A DNA stretch of 64,000 bases. Origin: Lachnospiraceae bacterium YSB2008 (GTDB lineage Bacteria; Bacillota; Clostridia; Lachnospirales; Lachnospiraceae). The position numbers were made by a program, and so were the translations under genes. The notes under the pieces were generated by a model. It was not told the DNA's origin and made no database searches. It was given only the letters and a program-made list of their open reading frames with translations. The stretch is taken from assembly GCA_000687655.1 (NCBI GenBank), contig JHWR01000003.1, forward strand, positions 62,001 to 126,000. The letters are read 5' to 3'. Positions within the stretch are counted from its first letter, which is position 1; the number at the start of each line of letters is the position of its first letter. This document shows positions 53,825 through 62,898 of this stretch, piece after piece.

Positions 53825-54067
53825 CCGCATGGACAGGCATATCGATAGCATGATGCGTGAACCGTTTTACAAGGGGCGTAATAATATGGTAATATAACCC
53901 TGGTTGTTACTTATCAACTGGGGTTTTTTACGTTGGAAAAGCTTTTTTCTGAACGACTAAATGGAGGTATTGTTTATGAGGAAGGGATTTGGAAACTGGA
54001 AGAAGGTTGTTGGAATAATGACAGCACTCACTTTGGCTCTCGGAATGACAAATATGAGTGTGTTTGC
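53822..54067. repeat. Direct repeat, copy 1 (leader plus signal-peptide cassette)
   Basis: About 246 bp starting at the TetR stop codon (TAACCGCATGGACAGGCATA) and running through a terminator-like hairpin and the first 30 codons of the surface protein. It is repeated at 55529-55769; the signal-peptide coding part is nearly identical, the middle of the leader more diverged. Confidence 0.9.
53896..53930 (+). terminator. Terminator-like hairpin before the surface protein
   Basis: AACCCTGGTTG pairs fully (two G-T pairs) with CAACTGGGGTT around TTACTTAT, then six Ts. It lies 46 bp upstream of the surface protein ATG and 72 bp after the TetR stop. It could end the TetR transcript or act as an attenuator in the leader. 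Confidence 0.75.
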
Positions 54068-55505
54068 CGATGAGATTGACGTTGGTGGGCAAGAAGGTGA
54101 ACAGGAGGAAACTGAAGTTCCTGATCCATTGAATGGATTTGCTGAGATAGCGCCTAATCAGGATGGGGGAGTTTTATTCTATCATACTGATAAAGATGAC
54201 GGTGACGCATGTGCAGTCTATTCAGAGGATAACACCTTTGAAATGGGAGACATTAATAATACCAAACAAAATTATTACGGTTATTCGCTTTTTATCAAAA
54301 ACCTTGGCGATGAGGCAATGGTTACAACCGGTTCTGTAACAAATACCGGTAGTTCCACTGGGGGTGAGATGACCGGCGTCTATGCTTATAACGAAGGCGG
54401 TAAAGTTGATGTCACAACAGGTGCTGTTAAGGCTGAAAATGAGGATACGGCGTGGGTTGTCGGAGTATATGCAGACGGAAGAAACGGTAACTCGACCAAT
54501 ATGAATATAGAAGGAGATGTTGTCGGAGTCGGTGGTAAGTATGCAACCGGAATCAATATAGTTCAGAGTGGAGAAGGAGAAACAAAAGTATCAGTAAAAA
54601 ACGGAGATGTCACCGGAAAAGCATCAAGGGATGCAAGTGGAGCATCAATAAGGGCAATGAGTGGAGGAAGAGCAACACTTGTTGTTAAAGGTGGCGATAT
54701 CAGAAGTAATATCTTCGGATTAGTATTAAGCGCTGATGATGCCGATGGAACTGGGATTAATGTTGTAGCAGACGGAACAGTATCAGGCGGAGTTTATGTT
54801 ACAGGTGGAGCTTCAGCTGAAAATATAAATCTTACAGTATGGAAGATAGAGCCATCTGTAAAGGGAGCATATATTTCAGACAATGAGGAAGACTTTTTGA
54901 ATGTTGAAGATGGTCATTTAATGGCTGCTCCGGATGAATCAAACCTGGGCGGAGCTGCAAATGGAAATCTTGGCGCAACTACTCCAACGGGTAACAATCT
55001 GGCTAATGTATATTATATTATTAAGGTTGAGCAGCCGGAGGCAGGTGGAAAGCTCACAGCTACAAAGGCAGATGGTTCTGCACTTGATAAAAGTGAAGGC
55101 TATGACGCAGCAAAGAGTGGTGAGAAGGTATATCTCAAGGTTGATCTTCAGGACGGATATGAGATTCTTGGCGCATTCAACGGCGAAGGTCAGGAAGAGA
55201 CTCTTCTCAAGGATGCTGATGGAAATTACTATGTAGAAGTAACTCAGGCCGGTGGAGTATATCTTTCAGTTAAGCTTAATAAGACAGCTGAAGATAAAGA
55301 AACTGTTGATGATGACGATACAGACGAAGAAGTAACTCCGGCAACAACAGATACAGGCAGCAAGGAAGCTCCTGCATCCAAGAACCTTGCAGATTCTCCA
55401 AAGACAGGAGATGAGACAAATGTAATGCTCATGATAATCCTTATGGGTCTTTCACTCACAGGTGCAGTTTCTGTAATCGAAATGAAGAGAAGACAGGAAA
55501 GATAA
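53976..55505 (+). CDS. Cell-surface protein with sortase-like C-terminal anchor
   Basis: About 509 aa from the ATG at 53976, chosen because ATGGAGGT lies just upstream. Signal peptide (KKVVGIMTALTLALGMTNMS, cleavage near VFADE), then beta-rich repeated strands (GSVTNTGSSTGGEMTGVYAY, GDVVGVGGKYATGINI and similar) suggesting a right-handed beta-helix, a second domain with GGKLTATKADGSAL, an acidic Thr linker and an LPxTG-variant SPKTGDE, a hydrophobic helix and a KRRQER tail. Likely displayed on the wall by sortase. Its 5' end is duplicated downstream. Confidence 0.85.
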   Translation: MRKGFGNWKKVVGIMTALTLALGMTNMSVFADEIDVGGQEGEQEETEVPDPLNGFAEIAPNQDGGVLFYHTDKDDGDACAVYSEDNTFEMGDINNTKQNYYGYSLFIKNLGDEAMVTTGSVTNTGSSTGGEMTGVYAYNEGGKVDVTTGAVKAENEDTAWVVGVYADGRNGNSTNMNIEGDVVGVGGKYATGINIVQSGEGETKVSVKNGDVTGKASRDASGASIRAMSGGRATLVVKGGDIRSNIFGLVLSADDADGTGINVVADGTVSGGVYVTGGASAENINLTVWKIEPSVKGAYISDNEEDFLNVEDGHLMAAPDESNLGGAANGNLGATTPTGNNLANVYYIIKVEQPEAGGKLTATKADGSALDKSEGYDAAKSGEKVYLKVDLQDGYEILGAFNGEGQEETLLKDADGNYYVEVTQAGGVYLSVKLNKTAEDKETVDDDDTDEEVTPATTDTGSKEAPASKNLADSPKTGDETNVMLMIILMGLSLTGAVSVIEMKRRQER

Positions 55506-55528: not shown

Positions 55529-55769
55529 TAACCGCATGGACAGGCATACCGACCGATTAGCCCGGTAAACTGTTTTGAGGGGCTGGATTTTGGTAAAATA
55601 ACCCTAGTTGTTACTTATCAACTGGGGTTTTTTTATTGGAAAGCTCTTTTCTAAATGACAAATGGAGGTATTGCTTATGAGGAAAAGATTTGGAAGCTGG
55701 AAGAAGGTTGTTGGAATAATGACAGCACTCACTCTGACACTCGGAATGACAAATATGAGTGTGTTTGCA
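55529..55769. repeat. Direct repeat, copy 2 (leader plus signal-peptide cassette)
   Basis: Second copy of the cassette at 53822-54067, beginning TAACCGCATGGACAGGCATA 24 bp after the surface protein stop. Downstream of the signal peptide the similarity ends abruptly. Confidence 0.9.
55600..55637 (+). terminator. Terminator-like hairpin, copy 2
   Basis: AACCCTAGTTG pairs without mismatch (one G-T) with CAACTGGGGTT, loop TTACTTAT, then seven Ts. In the A/T pair it compensates the G-T pair of copy 1, so the stem is conserved. Confidence 0.85.
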
Positions 55770-55799
55770 GGAGAAGACCGGCGAGGAAGAATAAAATGA
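55677..55799 (+). pseudogene. Orphan signal peptide, remnant of a duplicated surface protein gene
   Basis: 40 codons: MRKRFGSWKKVVGIMTALTL, then TLGMTNMSVFAGEDRRGRIK and stop. The first 31 residues match the signal peptide of the upstream surface protein almost exactly; the mature protein is missing. It keeps the TGGAGGTATTGCTT ribosome-binding region. Best read as a truncated paralogue left by duplication and deletion; expression of the short peptide is possible but there is no reason to assume function. Confidence 0.8.
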
Positions 55800-55813
55800 A
55801 AAAATTTAAAATT

Positions 55814-55847
55814 ACCTATTGACATACTAGGTAATAGATGTTATTAT
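55814..55847 (+). promoter_or_regulatory. Promoter with palindromic operator of the Cys/Met uptake operon
   Basis: -35 TTGACA (55819-55824), 17-bp spacer, -10 TATTAT (55842-55847). The -35 sits inside ACCTATTGACATACTAGGT (55814-55832), an ACCTA/TAGGT palindrome. The same motif with one change lies in the promoter at 61525. A repressor bound here would block RNA polymerase. Confidence 0.8.
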
Positions 55848-55920
55848 ACCCATCGTTCCAAGGAAATGTAATTTCAAAGCATTACATTTTCAAAAATATG
55901 AAAGAAGGAGGCAAAAAGAT

Positions 55921-56055
55921 ATGTTCTATAATCGTACATCTAAACTGAATACAGAGATGATGTGTTGTTGTCGAATGCTATACTCCCGGGCATATAATAT
56001 GGCTGGTGTTTCGGCATGTCGATGTTGCCGCCTCAGAGGAAACACCGTAAGGTAA
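55921..56055 (+). CDS. Cys/Met-rich leader peptide of the uptake operon
   Basis: 44 aa with a textbook GAAGGAGG site 9 nt upstream. Sequence features: NTEMMCCCRMLYSRAY at residues 10-25 and GVSACRCCRLRGNTVR at 29-44, so three consecutive Cys codons after two Met codons, then a second Cys-Arg-Cys-Cys cluster. It begins about 70 bp after the -10, ahead of a terminator and the SBP gene. Cys runs in a short leader frame are the mark of ribosome-mediated attenuation, sensing Cys-tRNA (and perhaps Met-tRNA). Not previously assigned by me to any known leader family. Confidence 0.8.
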   Translation: MFYNRTSKLNTEMMCCCRMLYSRAYNMAGVSACRCCRLRGNTVR

Positions 56056-56129
56056 TTAAATGACTCATATGTCGTTTGTAAATCAGAAGCCATTTGCCCG
56101 GGAGCGAGATATTAAGCCCCGGGCTTTTT
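55983..56129 (+). promoter_or_regulatory. Transcription attenuator with mutually exclusive helices
   Basis: Terminator: GCCCGGG (56096-56102) pairs with CCCGGGC (56118-56124), then TTTTTGATT. Competing helix: CTCCCGGGCA (55983-55992, codons 21-24 of the leader peptide) is a perfect 10-bp complement of TGCCCGGGAG (56095-56104), the terminator's left arm. Between them an 8-bp stem GGTGTTTC/GAAACACC (56005-56012 and 56039-56046) encloses the second Cys cluster. Which ribosome position favours which fold is not settled here. Confidence 0.78.
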
Positions 56130-56207
56130 GATTGTTCAAATCAATAAAGTCTGATTAACTCTTGAAGCAAAAACAACACATTATTTGAAAAAAGGAAGGA
56201 TAAAGAA

Positions 56208-57896
56208 ATGAAGAACAGAAAACTCGTTAAAGAAGGATTTACAAAGAAACTCAAGCGCATCGCCGCATTTGGTCTTACAGCAGTAACAGCACTCAGCCTT
56301 GCAACAGGATGCGGGGACAATGCAGATAAGGCAGATGCAGCAAATACAGAAGCAAAGGATTCAAAGGCAGTATACAGAACACTTGATGAGATCAAGGAAA
56401 GCGGAAAGGTAAATATCGGAGTCTTCTCCGACAAGTCCCCATTCGGATATGTCGATGAGAACGGTGATTATCAGGGATATGATGTTTACTTCGCTGAGAG
56501 GATAGGTAAGGACCTGGGCGTTGATATCAATTACGTATCAACAGAAGCAGCCAGCAGAGTTGAGTACCTCGAGACAGGCAAGGTTGATATCATTCTCGCA
56601 AACTTCACAGTAACAGATGAAAGAGCAGAGAAGGTTGACTTCGCTCTTCCATATATGAACGTAGCACTCGGAGTTGTTTCACACGATGACAATGTGATCA
56701 CAGACCTTTCCCAGATTGGTGCAGATGATCAGGTAATAGTAATTTCAGGAACAACAGCTGAGACATACCTCACAGAGAACAATCCGGATATCAAGCTTCA
56801 GAAGTTTGATACATATGCAGCAGCAAAGAGTTCATTTGAAAATGGAACAGGCGTTGCATGGGCAAATGACAATACTGAGGTTATAGCATTTGCAAATGAA
56901 AATGATGGATACACAGTAGGAATCGAGACACTCGGTAGTCTTGATACTATCGCACCTGCAGTATCAAAGGGAAATGAATCGCTCCTCAACTGGCTGAATG
57001 ATGAGATCAAATCACTCGGCGATGAGAAATTCTTCCATGCAGATTATGAAGCAACACTTCTTGATACTTATGGTAAGGACTACGAGGAAACACTTGTTGT
57101 TGAAGGCGGCGTTGTTGGTAATAACACAGATACTGATGCAGCGGATGAACCTGTTGAAGCAAAGGGTACTATCAAGATTGGTGCATCACCTACACCTCAT
57201 GCAGAGATTCTTGCAAAGGCAGCTGAGCTTCTTAAGGCAAAGGGCTGGGAGCTTGAAGTAACAGAATTTGAAGATTATGTTCAGCCAAACCTTGTAGTTG
57301 AGAGTGATGAGCTTGATGCAAACTATTTCCAGCACGTACCATACCTTGACAATTTCAATGATGAGAACGGAACACACCTTGTATCAGCAGGCGGAATCCA
57401 CTACGAGCCATTCGGAATCTATCCGGGAACAAAGAGCTCACTTGATGATCTTGCAGATGGCGATACTATAGCAGTTCCAAATGATACAACAAATGAAGCA
57501 AGAGCACTTCTTCTCCTTCAGGCAAATGGAGTTATCACACTTAAGGAAGATGCAGGTCTTACAGCTACAGTTCTTGATATAGTTGACAATCCTAAGAACA
57601 TTAATATTCAGGAGCTCGAGGCAGCTCAGGTAAGCAGAGTAAAGGATGAGGTAGCTTTCGTAGTACTTAACGGAAACTATGCACTTGAAGCAGGCTTCTC
57701 AGTAGCTAAGGATTCCATAGCATATGAGACATCAGATTCTGAAGCAGCTAAGACATACGTAAACATCGTAGCAGTAAAAGAAGGAAATGAAGATAACGAA
57801 GGCATCAAGGCTCTTGTAGAAGTTCTTAAGTCAGATGAGATCAAGGATTTCATCAACGAAACATATGACGGAGCAGTTATACCTTTTGAGGAATAA
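56208..57896 (+). CDS. Lipoprotein fusing family-3 amino-acid binding domain and MetQ/NlpA domain
   Basis: 562 aa. Lipobox LATGC (Cys at about 30). Residues about 52-300 form a periplasmic-binding-protein family 3 domain (GVFSDKSPFGYVDENGDYQG, ANFTVTDERAEKVDFALPYM), the class used for polar amino acids and cystine. Residues about 320-560 form a MetQ/NlpA domain (GTIKIGASPTPHAEILAKAA, DANYFQHVPYLDNFN, PNDTTNEARALLLLQANG). These are normally separate proteins. One tether with two receptors matches the two permease types encoded downstream. First structural gene behind the Cys/Met leader. Confidence 0.92.
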   Translation: MKNRKLVKEGFTKKLKRIAAFGLTAVTALSLATGCGDNADKADAANTEAKDSKAVYRTLDEIKESGKVNIGVFSDKSPFGYVDENGDYQGYDVYFAERIGKDLGVDINYVSTEAASRVEYLETGKVDIILANFTVTDERAEKVDFALPYMNVALGVVSHDDNVITDLSQIGADDQVIVISGTTAETYLTENNPDIKLQKFDTYAAAKSSFENGTGVAWANDNTEVIAFANENDGYTVGIETLGSLDTIAPAVSKGNESLLNWLNDEIKSLGDEKFFHADYEATLLDTYGKDYEETLVVEGGVVGNNTDTDAADEPVEAKGTIKIGASPTPHAEILAKAAELLKAKGWELEVTEFEDYVQPNLVVESDELDANYFQHVPYLDNFNDENGTHLVSAGGIHYEPFGIYPGTKSSLDDLADGDTIAVPNDTTNEARALLLLQANGVITLKEDAGLTATVLDIVDNPKNINIQELEAAQVSRVKDEVAFVVLNGNYALEAGFSVAKDSIAYETSDSEAAKTYVNIVAVKEGNEDNEGIKALVEVLKSDEIKDFINETYDGAVIPFEE

Positions 57897-57919: not shown

Positions 57920-58726
57920 ATGGCAATAATAGAAGTAAAAAACTTAACTAAGGAATATAAGACCGATGAAGGCGTACTGACCGCACTCTCAGATGTTTCC
58001 CTCTCCATAGAGGAGGGGGAGATATTCGGAGTGATAGGACTTTCAGGTGCTGGTAAGAGTACTTTTGTAAGGACCTTGAATCTGCTTGAAAGACCTACTT
58101 CCGGAAGTGTAATAGTACGTGGAAGAAGTCTCACCTCACTTTCTGAGAGAGAACTCAGGGAAGAGAGACGGAGCATCGGTATGATATTTCAGCACTTCAA
58201 CCTCCTGTACCAGAGGAATGTACTGGACAATGTAGCGTTCCCGTTAGAGATAGCGGGATACAGAAAAAAGGATGCCAGGAAGAAGGCAGCCGAATATCTG
58301 AATATTGTAGGTCTGGCTGAAAAGGCCAAGGCTTATCCTGCACAGCTTTCAGGCGGTCAGAAGCAGAGAGTTGCTATCGCGAGAAGTCTTGCGGCTGATC
58401 CTAAGATCATACTTTCTGATGAGGCGACAAGCGCACTTGATCCGGAAACAACCTCAAACATACTTTCACTTCTGAAAAAGATCAATAAAGAATATGGCAT
58501 CACCATAGTTCTCATAACACATGAAATGAAAGTAATAGAGCAGATATGTGACAGGGTTGCAGTTCTTGACGGGGGTAAGCTCTCGGAGATGGGAACAGTG
58601 GAGGAACTCTTCAGCAATCCTAAGACAAAGGCTGCCAAGAGACTCATATACACAGAACGTATCGACAAAGAGATCGAGTCGGACGGCAGCAAGATTATAG
58701 ATTTTAAAGAAAGGAGAGCTATATAG
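57920..58726 (+). CDS. Methionine-type ABC transporter ATPase lacking the C-terminal sensor domain
   Basis: 268 aa. MetN-like: GVIGLSGAGKSTFVRTLNLL with Walker A, signature LSGGQKQRVAIARSLA, Walker B IILSDEATSALDPET and switch LITHEMK. MetN proteins are usually about 340 aa with a C-terminal NIL domain that binds methionine and inhibits transport; this one ends soon after the ATPase, so that feedback is apparently absent. Shares one base with the following permease gene (TAGTG), so translation is coupled. Confidence 0.92.
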   Translation: MAIIEVKNLTKEYKTDEGVLTALSDVSLSIEEGEIFGVIGLSGAGKSTFVRTLNLLERPTSGSVIVRGRSLTSLSERELREERRSIGMIFQHFNLLYQRNVLDNVAFPLEIAGYRKKDARKKAAEYLNIVGLAEKAKAYPAQLSGGQKQRVAIARSLAADPKIILSDEATSALDPETTSNILSLLKKINKEYGITIVLITHEMKVIEQICDRVAVLDGGKLSEMGTVEELFSNPKTKAAKRLIYTERIDKEIESDGSKIIDFKERRAI

Positions 58727-59388
58727 TGAACGTATCAGACATACTTACAATGCTATGGGCAGGAACGAGAGATACTCTTCTTATGGTGCTTTTGTCCACC
58801 CTGTTCGGCTACATACTTGGACTTCCTATAGGCGTTCTCCTTACAGTAACGGATTCGAATGGAATCGCCCCTAATAAACCACTGTACAAGGTATTTGACG
58901 TGATGGTAAATGTAACGAGGAGCGTTCCATTTCTTATTCTCCTTATTCTGATCCAGCCGCTTACCAAGCTGCTGGTCGGAAAAAGCTATGGGACTGTAGC
59001 GACTATTGTGCCGCTCACACTGGCCGCTACTCCCCTCATAGCGCGAATGGTTGAAAGCTCCCTCAAGGAAGTCGACTCCGGTGTGATCGAAGCGGCTATC
59101 AGCATGGGGGCCGGTAAACTGGCAATAGTAAAGAAGGTTCTTATACCTGAAGCGAAGATATCGTTGCTTATCGGCGTAACTATTTCCCTTGGAACCATAC
59201 TCGGATATTCGGCCATGGCCGGAGTAGTCGGAGGCGGCGGACTCGGTGATATAGCAATACGATATGGTTATTACAGGTATGAGACAGAGATAATGATAAT
59301 CACTGTGGTCGTTCTGGTACTGCTGATGCAGATACTGCAGTGGATAGGAAATGTAATGTCCAAGAAGCTGGACAGAAGAAAAAGATAG
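58726..59388 (+). CDS. MetI-like ABC permease
   Basis: 220 aa, five membrane helices, GTG start sharing a base with the ATPase stop. MetI hallmarks: RDTLLMVLLSTLFGYILGLP, NVTRSVPFLILLILIQPLTK, and the EAA coupling loop EAAISMGAGKLAIVKKVLIPEA, then GYSAMAGVVGGGGLGDIAIR. Forms the methionine channel with the ATPase upstream and the MetQ half of the fused lipoprotein. Confidence 0.93.
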   Translation: MNVSDILTMLWAGTRDTLLMVLLSTLFGYILGLPIGVLLTVTDSNGIAPNKPLYKVFDVMVNVTRSVPFLILLILIQPLTKLLVGKSYGTVATIVPLTLAATPLIARMVESSLKEVDSGVIEAAISMGAGKLAIVKKVLIPEAKISLLIGVTISLGTILGYSAMAGVVGGGGLGDIAIRYGYYRYETEIMIITVVVLVLLMQILQWIGNVMSKKLDRRKR

Positions 59389-59412
59389 ATGCTCGGAAAG
59401 GAGGGGCAGTAA

Positions 59413-60072
59413 ATGAATACTTCCATAATGCTTGAATATCTGCCGCTCTTTCTGAAGGCACTTCTTCTCACGCTGAAGATAGGCTGGATAGGCATAACTC
59501 TTTCGGCTGCGATAGGGTTCATTACAGCAGTTATAAGATTCTACAAGATTCCTGTGTTAAGCAGGATTCTTGGCGCTTATATAGAACTTTTCAGGAATAC
59601 ACCTCTTCTGGTGCAGCTCTTTTTCATTTATTTCGGACTGCCGAGGGTGGGGATTTCACTAAGTGCAGAGGCTGCCGGAATAATAGGACTCGGACTTCTG
59701 GGTGGTGCATATATGGCTGAAACTCTCAGGAGCGGGCTTGAAGCAGTAAGTAAGGCTCAGACGGAAAGTGCACTTTCGCTGGGAATGAACAGATGGCAGA
59801 CTATGACGAGGATCATACTTCCCGAAGCTCTGGAGATGAGTATTCCGGGAATATCCGCAAATATAATATTCCTGCTTAAGGAAACCTCTGTTTTCTCAGC
59901 CATAAGTCTTATGGATCTGATGTTTACGGCAAAGGACCTGATAGGTCTTTATTACAGAACGATAGAGAGCCTTGCACTTCTGGTTATCTTCTATCTGATC
60001 ATACTTCTTCCTGTGTCGATAGCAGGAAGTGTTCTGGAGAGGAGGTACGGATTTGCAGTTTCTGGGAATTGA
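59413..60072 (+). CDS. Polar amino-acid ABC permease (HisM family), first subunit
   Basis: 219 aa, five helices. Family features: RIGW-like start LTLKIGWIGITLSAAIGFIT, IELFRNTPLLVQLFFIYFGL and the EAA loop ESALSLGMNRWQTMTRIILPEA. Paired with the next permease, whose TTG start overlaps it by 20 bp. With the family-3 domain of the lipoprotein it probably imports cystine or a related amino acid. ATG at 59413 with AAAGGAGGGG upstream. Confidence 0.92.
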   Translation: MNTSIMLEYLPLFLKALLLTLKIGWIGITLSAAIGFITAVIRFYKIPVLSRILGAYIELFRNTPLLVQLFFIYFGLPRVGISLSAEAAGIIGLGLLGGAYMAETLRSGLEAVSKAQTESALSLGMNRWQTMTRIILPEALEMSIPGISANIIFLLKETSVFSAISLMDLMFTAKDLIGLYYRTIESLALLVIFYLIILLPVSIAGSVLERRYGFAVSGN

Positions 60073-60730
60073 GACATTATTTAAAGGAAAAAATGCACTC
60101 CGACTTCTGGAGGGACTTTGGATATCACTCAGGATAAGCCTTATTTCCGTGATAATAAGTATAGTGCTGGGACTGGTGATAGGAGCTCTCCTTACAGGCA
60201 AAGGCAGAGTGTTAAAAGGAATCTACAGAGTATACCTTGAGGTTGTCAGGATAATGCCGCAGATGGTTCTTCTTTTCATTGTATTCTTCGGGACAACGAG
60301 GGTCCTGGGACTTAACATGAATGCAGAGGTGGCGGCAATCATAGTATTCAGCTTCTGGGGAACGGCTGAGATGGAGGATATAGTAAGAGGAGCTATCGTA
60401 AGTATTCCAAAGGTGCAGTATGAAAGTGCGGTGGCACTCGGGCTGCGCGACAGAGAAGTATTGTTTCATATAATAATACCTCAGGCAGTTAGGAGACTCA
60501 TTCCTCTCTCCATCAATCTGATTACCCGAATGATCAAGACTACCAGTCTTGTAATGATGATAGGAGTTGTAGAGGTATCAAAAGTCGGACAGCAGATCAT
60601 AGAAGCAAACAGAATGACATCACCAAATGGAGCGTTCGGGATATATCTCGTGATATTCCTTCTGTATTTTATAGTATGCTGGCCTATATCACTTATGTCG
60701 AAGAAACTTGAAGTACGTTGGAGTGAATAA
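60053..60730 (+). CDS. Polar amino-acid ABC permease (HisM family), second subunit
   Basis: 225 aa from a TTG start at 60053 (GAGGAGGT 7 nt upstream); an in-frame GTG at 60029 lies deeper in the preceding gene. Features: GLWISLRISLISVIISIVLG, YLEVVRIMPQMVLLFIVFFG and the EAA loop ESAVALGLRDREVLFHIIIPQA. Heterodimeric partner of the preceding permease. Confidence 0.9.
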   Translation: MQFLGIETLFKGKNALRLLEGLWISLRISLISVIISIVLGLVIGALLTGKGRVLKGIYRVYLEVVRIMPQMVLLFIVFFGTTRVLGLNMNAEVAAIIVFSFWGTAEMEDIVRGAIVSIPKVQYESAVALGLRDREVLFHIIIPQAVRRLIPLSINLITRMIKTTSLVMMIGVVEVSKVGQQIIEANRMTSPNGAFGIYLVIFLLYFIVCWPISLMSKKLEVRWSE

Positions 60731-61489
60731 ATGTCAGAAGCAGTTATACAATTGAATCATGTTACGAAGAATTATAAAGACGTTAAAGCTCTGAAGGATC
60801 TGAGCCTTAACGTTAATGAAGGCGAGGTCGTTGTCATCATAGGTCCTTCAGGCTGTGGAAAAAGTACACTGCTAAGGACTATCAACGGACTTGAGGATAT
60901 ACAGGGCGGAACGATACATTTTCGTGATAAGACAGTAAATGACGAAGGCAGGATGTCTAAGGATATAACCGAGATAAGACAGAAGATAGGAATGGTATTC
61001 CAGAGCTATGAACTCTTTCCTCATAAGAATATCCTTCAGAATATCATGCTTGCACCGGTAGTAGTGCAGAAGAGGGATAAGAAAGAGGTAGAAAAGGAAG
61101 CGGATGAGCTGCTAAGTAAGGTTGGACTCTCAGAAAAGAGGAAGGCATATCCGAAGGAACTGTCCGGAGGACAGAGGCAGAGAGTGGCCATAGTCCGTGC
61201 GCTGGCAATGCATCCTGAGGTTCTGCTTTTCGATGAGGTCACGGCGGCACTTGACCCGGAGATGGTAAGAGAAGTCCTGAATGTAATACTTGATCTCGCG
61301 AAGGACGGAAGGACCATGGTCGTTGTAACGCATGAGATGTCATTTGCCAAGGCGGTAGCTGACCGAGTTGTATTCATGGAGGACGGCGAGATAGTAGAAC
61401 AGGGAACTCCGGAGGAGATTTTCGTTCATCCAAAGAATGAGAGAGTGAGAAGATTCCTGGATACGTTCAGATTTGTCAAGGCAGGATAG
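60731..61489 (+). CDS. Polar amino-acid ABC transporter ATPase (GlnQ/HisP type)
   Basis: 252 aa, normal length. Walker [20 protein letters not shown]-loop [17 protein letters not shown], signature [19 protein letters not shown], Walker [15 protein letters not shown] and switch VVTHEM. Drives the two HisM-type permeases directly upstream, with 0 bp between genes. Last gene of the six-cistron operon; no strong terminator was seen in the 40 bp after it. Confidence 0.94.
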
Positions 61490-61524: not shown

Positions 61525-61559
61525 ACCTATTGACATAGTAGGTGTATAGCATATACAAT
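61525..61559 (+). promoter_or_regulatory. Promoter with the same palindromic operator, before the ligase gene
   Basis: ACCTATTGACATAGTAGGT (61525-61543) contains -35 TTGACA (61530-61535); -10 TACAAT (61554-61559) at 18 bp or TATACA at 16 bp. Eighteen of nineteen bases match the operator at 55814. The untranslated leader up to 61641 contains GAATC/GATTC and TCGC/GCGA inverted pairs but no Cys-rich frame. Confidence 0.75.
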
Positions 61560-61641
61560 GTACAAGCTATAAAAAACATAGAATCGCATCGGAGACGCGA
61601 CAACCGGGATTCAGATTAGAAAGAATATGAGGATTTTACAT

Positions 61642-62898
61642 ATGAGTTTTATAAATGATATTTCTGATTATATTAGATCCGGAGAATCAAAGGATCAGAA
61701 TCTCGGTCTCGAGATAGAGCATTTCATCGTAAACGATGAGGGTGTCCAGATGGAATTCCATGAGATATCGAATCTCATCAATCAGGTAGGAAAGGCTATA
61801 GGTGCCGAGATTATCTTTATGGACAGTTATCCTGTAGGTTATTATACAGGCGAATACTCTACCAGCCTCGAGCCGGCATGTCAGTTTGAGATAAGTATCA
61901 ATCCTTATTCAGACCTTGATACTATTAAGAATATATATGCTGAGTTCAGGAGCCTCTGGGAGCCTATATTTAAGGAGAGGGGTTATCATTTCGAGACGAA
62001 AGGAAACCTTCCTCTTGTTGAACTTGGAAAGATAACTCCTGATGATATTCCACTTTCACCGAAGAAGAGATATAAGTATATGGATGCTTATTTCAAGAGA
62101 AGCGGAAAGTATGGAAAGTACATGATGCGTGCTTCAGGCTCTGCACAGGTTTCCATAGATTATAAATCCGAAGAGGATATGGTAAGGAAGCTGCGTGTTC
62201 TGGAGAAGATATCACCTATTCTCATGATAATGATGGAGAATAAAACTGATGAAGCATCTACGCTTCCGGGTGTAAGTGATAAGCCGCACCTTCTCAGGAT
62301 TCAGGAGTGGGATGACCTTGATCCGGAGAGAACGGGCTTCGTTCCATTTTCACTTGATAATGATTTTGGATATGACAAGATGGCTGAGGTGGTATATCAT
62401 ACACCGCTTATTCTTCTTACTGATAATGGAGAGACAGTAAATGTCGGTCATCAGAATGCAGAGGAACTGATTCAAAATCATATCGTGTATACTGATGATA
62501 TTACGGACGAGAGAAAGACTAAGCTTATCGAGCATTTCATGTCTATGGGTTTCTTCCATTTCAGAGTGAAGAAGTATATAGAGGTAAGAGTAGCTGACAG
62601 CGTACCTATAGATAAGGCGCTGGGCTATGTTGCCCTGTTGAAGGGCTTGATATATTCAGAAAAAAATCTCAGTAAGCTTGAGAAAAATCTTGAAATAATA
62701 ACAAGTCTTGATGATATTCAGGATGCAGTTATTGCCATAGAAAAAAATGGCTTCGACGCTGTCATATATAAGAAATGGACAGCAGCAGGCTGGGCTGAAT
62801 ATCTCCTTAAGCTGGCTGAGGATGCACTTACGGACATAGATAAGGAGTACCTGAACAATGTGCGAACTTTTTGGAATTACAGCGAACAGGCGTGTTAA
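61642..62898 (+). CDS. Glutamate-cysteine ligase-type enzyme (GCS2/EgtA-like)
   Basis: 418 aa from the ATG at 61642, preferred over 61627 because GAGGA lies 8 nt upstream. Carries the GCS2 core: LGLEIEHFIVNDEGVQMEF (metal/ATP glutamates), GEYSTSLEPACQFEISINPY and FFHFRVKKYIEVRVADSVP near the active-site end. The family condenses glutamate with cysteine (or another amine) to gamma-glutamyl products. The following gene overlaps it by 41 bp. Substrate inference rests on family and context. Confidence 0.85.
   Translation: MSFINDISDYIRSGESKDQNLGLEIEHFIVNDEGVQMEFHEISNLINQVGKAIGAEIIFMDSYPVGYYTGEYSTSLEPACQFEISINPYSDLDTIKNIYAEFRSLWEPIFKERGYHFETKGNLPLVELGKITPDDIPLSPKKRYKYMDAYFKRSGKYGKYMMRASGSAQVSIDYKSEEDMVRKLRVLEKISPILMIMMENKTDEASTLPGVSDKPHLLRIQEWDDLDPERTGFVPFSLDNDFGYDKMAEVVYHTPLILLTDNGETVNVGHQNAEELIQNHIVYTDDITDERKTKLIEHFMSMGFFHFRVKKYIEVRVADSVPIDKALGYVALLKGLIYSEKNLSKLEKNLEIITSLDDIQDAVIAIEKNGFDAVIYKKWTAAGWAEYLLKLAEDALTDIDKEYLNNVRTFWNYSEQAC

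Follow-up and report, generated by a model that had tools for sequence, protein, structure and literature searches.

A predicted cysteine-responsive transcription attenuator with an in-frame antiterminator arm in Lachnospiraceae and related Clostridia

A leader frame rich in cysteine codons, lying between a promoter and an intrinsic terminator ahead of an operon for amino acid import, raises the question of whether its translation decides if the operon is transcribed. The locus belongs to Lachnospiraceae bacterium YSB2008 and is part of a 64,000-nucleotide stretch of DNA analyzed in its entirety (hereafter the window; positions 62,001 to 126,000 of contig JHWR01000003.1); the leader, its promoter and operator, and the genes that follow it are on its forward strand. 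A promoter-like TTGACA-17-TATTAT sequence (55819..55847; 11 of 12 matches) is followed by a strong Shine-Dalgarno sequence, GGAGGC (55907..55912), and by a leader frame of 44 codons, MFYNRTSKLNTEMMCCCRMLYSRAYNMAGVSACRCCRLRGNTVR (55921..56055), with the start codon ATG at 55921, the stop codon at 56053-56055 and the motifs MMCCC and CRCC; the frame, its ribosome binding site and these motifs are as the original prediction had described them from the letters and the list of open reading frames. The first Cys cluster occupies codons 15 to 17 (55963..55971) and is the proposed stall site; the second (56017..56028) comprises Cys33 (56017-56019), Cys35 and Cys36 (both in 56023-56028). Codons 21 to 24 overlap CTCCCGGGCA (55983..55992), which indeed forms, as had been noted, 10 perfect base pairs with TGCCCGGGAG (56095-56104) in the terminator's left arm. 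A second segment, ATGGC (55999..56003), pairs with GCCAT (56089-56093) and lengthens this helix to an antiterminator of 15 bp, the 3′ arm of which, GCCATTTGCCCGGGAG (56089..56104), overlaps the left arm of the terminator (56096..56129; stem 56096-56105/56116-56124, T5 at 56125-56129). Inside the antiterminator, folding places a local hairpin, GGTGTTT/AAACACC (56005..56046), that is seen by eye in the related locus L004 too. We propose, with considerable confidence, that this element is a transcription attenuator that depends on the ribosome and gauges charged tRNA-Cys.

Just 5′ of the leader, a short frame (55662-55799) repeats the start of the open reading frame at 53961-55505; both begin MEVL.MRK.FG.WKKVVGIMTALTL, and the former is apparently a truncated duplicate.

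Target genes and distribution of the element

The first gene after the leader (56208..57896) encodes a fused SBP_bac_3 and MetQ/NlpA-type binding lipoprotein, with both Pfam domains above cut-off and the NCBIfam MetQ models below it. It is followed by genes for a MetN-like ATPase, a MetI permease, two further permeases and a TcyN-like ATPase (57920..61489; Pfam and NCBIfam), among which the MetI permease scores above cut-off, the closest specific NCBIfam models for the other operon products falling below it. The operon thus holds parts of two ABC importers, one of the methionine type and one of the cystine/polar type. A Pfam-supported gene for a GCS2-type glutamate-cysteine ligase lies farther on (61627..62898). 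A second copy of the leader in the same genome (L002) has the same layout and stands 5′ of a gene for an O-acetylhomoserine sulfhydrylase (TIGR01326, 632.9 bits against a cut-off of 495.1). Across the family of elements the first gene 3′ belongs to the O-acetylhomoserine-sulfhydrylase-type cluster in 111 of 171 cases, to the MetQ/binding-protein cluster in 46, to related ABC parts in 6 and, by eye, to a CysK-like type in 1; one sulfhydrylase and the window genes were assigned against curated models and the remainder by blastp clustering. The original prediction of control over sulfur amino acid import fits the window, where the predicted target is such an importer; the family as a whole is found more often at O-acetylhomoserine sulfhydrylase genes than at importers. 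As judged from these assignments, the target genes are ones that raise cysteine supply, as an attenuator of this kind would call for. By eye, copies of the leader also precede an iron-type alcohol dehydrogenase-like gene (L129), a short-chain dehydrogenase-like gene (L169) and a peptidase-like gene (L026), and in L154 and L014 the leader is followed by a gene of no assigned kind.

A search with the leader DNA in 61 genomes (its own and 60 relatives) matched 19, all of the same genus; one match, L021, proved unrelated on inspection. Scanning the genomes of named species for the DNA pattern YTGTCGAATGNNNNNNTCCCGGRCA gave at least 120 matches at no fewer than 119 loci. Titles of the matches listed are chiefly from Lachnospiraceae, Ruminococcaceae, Saccharofermentans, Oscillospiraceae, Blautia and other Clostridia, many of these carriers (from more than 100 bacterial genome records) being from the gut and rumen; they include Eubacterium ruminantium FB3002, Lachnospiraceae bacterium AC2029, Clostridium porci and Ruminococcaceae bacterium KHP2. 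Negativicutes are represented among the matches listed by Anaerovibrio sp. JC8 and one Phascolarctobacterium metagenome-assembled genome (MAG). Also listed are single MAG matches from Eggerthellaceae and Succinivibrio, which could be contamination, and one from a cyanobacterial MAG (L121), which was rejected as a chance match.

For comparison, we assembled the alignment A1 of 97 sequences, consisting of 80 pattern elements, the window and 16 more. The pattern elements were 90 at the outset and 85 after removal of near-duplicates, whereupon L055, L098, L101, L110 and L113 were removed by hand; L003 (the same place as L001), L017 (the same place as L138), L010 (a contig end) and the unrelated L021 were left out of the genus set. 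The covariance model R1, built from 97 sequences, finds the element in 37 of 61 genomes of the genus (23 of the 31 with completeness of 90% or more and contamination of 5% or less), in 36 of 250 genomes and 35 of 249 genera of the family, in 14 of 391 genomes of the class and in 5 of 398 of the phylum, in samples that overlap and with filters that lose weak matches. The element is common in the genus, scattered through the family and rare beyond it. Some genomes hold three or four copies (G295, G016, G544 and G1072).

The pooled set comprises 183 distinct elements, 118 from the pattern and 65 more through the covariance model. L121, L127 and L183 are chance matches and are excluded from the counts of Cys codons in 180 elements and from the 38 elements among these that do not match the pattern; the duplex analysis also excluded L188, and the alifold set (166 sequences) left out all of these as well as L187 and L189-L191. 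For the frame, first-gene and operator counts, only the two elements without usable upstream sequence were dropped, from the frame count.

The reading frame and its cysteine codons

A frame with a ribosome binding site and ATG that runs open into the antiterminator arm in the Cys frame is present in 169 of 181 usable elements, against 7 and 4 for the other two frames; the remaining 12 lack a frame-0 start by the criteria used. With a median length of 39 amino acids, the leader is thus a short frame with its own ribosome binding site ahead of a structural gene, the arrangement expected of an attenuator on the evidence of its sequence. This preference for one frame speaks against a metabolite-binding riboswitch in which the frame is incidental. 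The RNA sequence is conserved around both arms, as a riboswitch would require, but Rfam provides no match to the leader, either at the gathering cut-off (the window and 18 loci) or at E ≤ 1 (55780-56215), and we consider such a riboswitch highly improbable. Pfam and NCBIfam likewise return no match to the leader, the NCBIfam scan having covered two leader peptides.

The scan pattern fixes C-R-M and S-R-A/T, so that conservation at these positions is uninformative in the pattern elements. A Cys codon lies 3 to 7 codons before the arm in 180 of 180 elements, by construction in the 142 pattern matches and not in the other 38; among the latter, 25 have the nearest Cys codon starting 15 nt ahead of the TCC of the arm, and a further 9 have it starting 18 nt ahead. 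These elements, together with the frame count, bear out the expectation that relatives would conserve the Cys codons. Among the eleven codons examined, 164 of the 180 elements have at least two Cys codons, a count due in part to the pattern; so do 32 of the 38. One or more Cys codons follow the arm in 159 of the 180. The cluster itself varies (CCCCI, CCCCCS, CCCCCA, MCMRM, MCCIRM, MCMCMCRM), with Cys kept and neighboring codons changing. A count of Cys codons by frame (432, 349 and 14) was set aside as evidence, because the nucleotides ATGTGT and AATGC/T add to the count of frame 1 as well. Arg-Cys-stop, in the form CGATGTTGA, is a frequent leader ending at many loci, and 40 of 169 leaders close with Cys-TGA.

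The Met codons that flank or interleave with these Cys codons raise the possibility that the leader senses methionine, or methionine and cysteine jointly. ATG stands at codon −7 in 106 of 183 elements and at codon −8 in 76 of 183, variants such as MCMCMCRM and MCCMCMCRM alternate the two residues, and MetQ and O-acetylhomoserine sulfhydrylase belong equally to methionine metabolism. Against this, elements that lack ATG at codon −7 mostly have Cys (51/183) or Trp (12/183) there, pure runs of four or five Cys codons occur in L005, L012 and L018/L219, and the Cys codon before the arm is the one found in every element, including those in which it is not imposed. Methionine sensing seems to us unlikely; for a sensing of methionine separate from that of cysteine, the comparison speaks neither for nor against.

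It could also be supposed that the peptide itself, rather than tRNA charging, is what matters, with CRM..SRA halting translation and with cysteine, one of its products or a metal as the signal; the peptide encoded by a copper-responsive upstream frame is said to contain Cys. C-R-M-x-x-S-R-A does recur, though the pattern fixes it in most elements. We reject the conserved CRM and SRA as proof of selection on the peptide, because the scan pattern fixes the codons and the paired arm of the RNA dictates SRA. Further, 32 of the 38 non-pattern elements use CGA for Arg and one uses CGC, and this near-constant CGA points to selection on nucleotides rather than on the residue, while CRM is replaced altogether in the CCCCI, CCCCCS and CCCCCA leaders. 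The copper-responsive frame is described in PMC9426467; we regard arrest by the nascent peptide as improbable here.

Alternative helices and the direction of control

Sensing of charged tRNA-Cys through translation would depend on two mutually exclusive structures. In the window, a simple terminator scan also picks the terminator, with 3 matches against 2.0 expected by chance, so the scan alone is no proof; the fold of 56030-56135 is better than 200 of 200 shuffles (z of −3.9). Stronger than such single-sequence statistics is the recurrence of the layout in L002 and in more than 100 other genome records. Among the 120 matches listed, prior to selection, the exact complement TG[CT]CCGGGA is found 61 to 154 nt 3′ in 103 and is absent in 17, some of which end at contig ends; 90 of the 120 have the complement with T5 13 to 49 nt after its start, free of N and within 190 nt.

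Across A1, 95.7% of the cells of the 15-pair helix can pair, against 26 to 49% for slid versions of it. Eight of the 15 pairs have changed on both sides (36 cells), a level reached by 0 of 500 shuffles, in agreement with the compensatory changes anticipated for a long-range helix of this kind. The choice of 80 of the 97 sequences drew on the first helix but not on the second, ATGGC/GCCAT, in which each of the 5 pairs shows changes on both sides. Of the terminator pairs, one that places A opposite C forms in 30 of 97 sequences and another in 58 of 97, as rough counts that partly reflect column shift. Full complementarity (9/9) is seen in 24 of the 38 non-pattern elements against 0 of 38 when shuffled, which is weak evidence because most of them entered through a model containing that helix. 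Taken together, the covariation argues for an antiterminator that is mutually exclusive with an intrinsic terminator.

Predicted folds respond to where the ribosome is placed. Masking a Cys-stalled ribosome makes the antiterminator the structure of lowest energy in 86 of 97 sequences, and masking the arm, as a ribosome moving on would do, gives the terminator in 95 of 97; for ribosome-free RNA from the Cys codons onward the antiterminator is favored in 79 of 97. In the window, 55854-56135 is predicted to fold into a closed leader with the terminator (−81.4 kcal/mol), and the 5 nt shorter 55854-56130 favors the antiterminator (−78.7 kcal/mol). The two states are thus close, from which it follows that termination would need timing or a moving ribosome.

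For RNA that does not yet reach the distal arm (55854-56088), a fully closed leader is predicted. In this fold the ribosome binding site region (55906-55914) pairs with 56025-56033 (codons 35-38), the first Cys cluster, through GTCGAATGC (55970..55978), pairs with 56014-56023 in the second, and the arm 55983-55992 pairs with 56000-56008 of its own region. Family support for these closing helices is graded. Pairing of the ribosome binding site with its own 3′ codons has a mean score of 13.92 over the 103 elements with GGAG (17 matches without it were left unscored), against 12.89 ± 0.21 when binding sites are swapped between species (0/500), and the alifold of 166 sequences is suggestive of the self-hairpin of the arm. 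Between the region of the first cluster and the stretch after the arm, the mean duplex energy of 176 elements is −9.3 kcal/mol, compared to −6.6 when shuffled (0/200 as low). Support for the hairpin between the two clusters is partial: it forms in 79 of 178 folds versus 34 with one shuffle each, the own partner is not clearly better in six variants without CGAATG (153 of 2,000 random assignments are as good), and clear compensation is confined to L217 and L219. GTCGAATGC may act as the 5′ arm of an anti-antiterminator, a structure that the fold predicted for the window leader shows clearly and that the family comparison suggests.

A ribosome has its leading edge about 12 to 13 nt beyond the A site. 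With the last codon of the first Cys cluster (55969-55971) in the A site, this edge would come to about 55981-55982, before 55983, so that a stalled ribosome would leave the arm free. A stall at this cluster had been expected to cover the arm in part, which these distances speak against. The direction of control had accordingly been called unclear; a stall at the second cluster would indeed free the arm, as then supposed, but on this model the two clusters are not opposed, and a stall at either would give read-through.

We envisage the following sequence of events. RNA polymerase would start at the promoter overlapped by an operator shared with other copies, and a ribosome would enter the leader. 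When Cys-tRNA is scarce, it would halt on the first Cys cluster with its front edge just before CTCCCGGGCA, which, being free, would capture TGCCCGGGAG as it emerges; the 15-bp antiterminator would exclude the terminator, and the sulfur genes would be transcribed. When Cys-tRNA is plentiful, the ribosome would continue and cover the arm during synthesis of the distal segment. Behind it the leader would close, the cluster 1 region on that of cluster 2, the arm on itself and the ribosome binding site on codons 35-38, so that the antiterminator would be blocked by occlusion, by the closed leader fold or by both, and the binding site would be shut after use. The distal segment would then pair with its own 3′ partner, and transcription would end at the T-run. 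That low Cys-tRNA would lead to read-through is a direction drawn from anatomy and folding, and it suits genes that raise cysteine.

A shared operator and the relation to known attenuators

The −35 box of the promoter lies in an operator-like inverted repeat, ACCTATTGACATACTAGGT (55814..55832; an exact match at G000:C3:117814-117832). A ACCTATTGACATAGTAGGT-like operator-promoter motif holds the −35 box in 158 of 183 elements at up to 2 mismatches in 13 letters; at up to 4 mismatches it is found in 160 of 183, compared to 33 in letter-shuffled upstream regions. The genome of the window has three exact sites, two at the leaders and the third at 61525..61543, 84 nt 5′ of the glutamate-cysteine ligase gene, a spacing too small for a leader and terminator. 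Of 170 elements, 32 (L007, L020 and others) have a divergent gene of the Rrf2 family no more than 600 nt away; the protein of L020, the one scanned, scores 116.2 against a superfamily cut-off of 73.3 and falls below the cut-off for IscR (91.0) and CymR (83.8). We infer that the operator could be recognized by a CymR-like repressor. One may ask whether such an Rrf2-family repressor provides the main control, the leader and terminator serving for fine-tuning, a view compatible with the attenuator reading. The frequency of the motif, the divergent genes and the third site at a gene without a leader all speak for it, but it leaves the conserved leader unexplained, and we rate it as rather unlikely, though with a substantial chance of being right.

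The reading as a cysteine-responsive attenuator, with which we began and which the original prediction had put forward, is supported by the conserved frame, the Cys codons and the compensatory changes in the helices. Comparison of the elements shows conservation of the frame with its Cys codons and their spacing, of the antiterminator helix and the terminator, and of the gene context and the operator, and the leader switch presents itself as a widespread element under a common operator rather than a lone oddity. More tentatively, and at somewhat less than even probability, we suggest that these elements make up a large family of single-use cysteine attenuators, so far uncatalogued, in Clostridia and some neighbors. 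One operator would set initiation, the leader ribosome binding site would be shut by its own 3′ codons and the first Cys cluster would pair with the second; about one ribosome would thus serve each nascent RNA, giving a yes or no according to whether it clears the Cys codons before the distal arm emerges.

Amino acid genes of Firmicutes are controlled largely by T-boxes, riboswitches and repressors. The Cys T-boxes and SAM (S-box) riboswitches act on the same gene classes through termination, and unlike these the present element has no match to their Rfam models (window and 18 loci). Ribosome-mediated attenuators of the trp, his and leu type are known from Proteobacteria. A His leader at hisS/hisZ in bacilli was presented as new for Firmicutes in a 2010 survey, which placed leader-peptide attenuators before it in Proteobacteria and Actinobacteria only, the atypical ermC leader aside (PMC2965389). 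With these ribosome-mediated attenuators our element shares a short frame led by a ribosome binding site, regulatory codons, an antiterminator opposed to an intrinsic terminator and targets concerned with the same amino acid. It differs in its Cys codons, in the operator shared on the −35 box, in its hosts (Clostridia and relatives) and in the in-frame antiterminator arm, which mostly lies 15 nt past the start of the last Cys codon. Its sequence relation to known attenuator leaders was judged through Rfam alone, with no match.

Cysteine leaders have their own precedents, and those of Actinobacteria were reportedly treated by Canestrari et al. in 2020. Runs of Cys codons 5′ of cys operons and cbs, resembling ours, are described for Mycobacterium, Propionibacterium and Bifidobacterium (PMC1262725). 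The mycobacterial ones are described as leaderless and without conserved terminator hairpins; here a ribosome binding site is present, together with a terminator and antiterminator. The uORFC-8-2 motif 5′ of cysS in Rhodobacterales likewise has tandem Cys codons in an upstream frame followed by an intrinsic terminator, and its entry in PMC8632094 describes neither an operator nor a helix closing the ribosome binding site. Going by that entry, the window differs in its target, an importer headed by a binding lipoprotein gene rather than cysS, and in that the hosts belong to other phyla; no Rhodobacterales are found among the titles of the at least 119 loci listed. In the open-access literature searched, we found no cysteine leader peptide for Clostridia. 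We file the element as a new family inside a known type of mechanism, ribosome-mediated amino acid attenuation.

If this is true, the cysteine supply of rumen and gut anaerobes would be under translation-coupled control in 35 of the 249 genera of the family sampled, and beyond. The carriers named to strain make the attenuator testable, and it would offer a natural cysteine biosensor.
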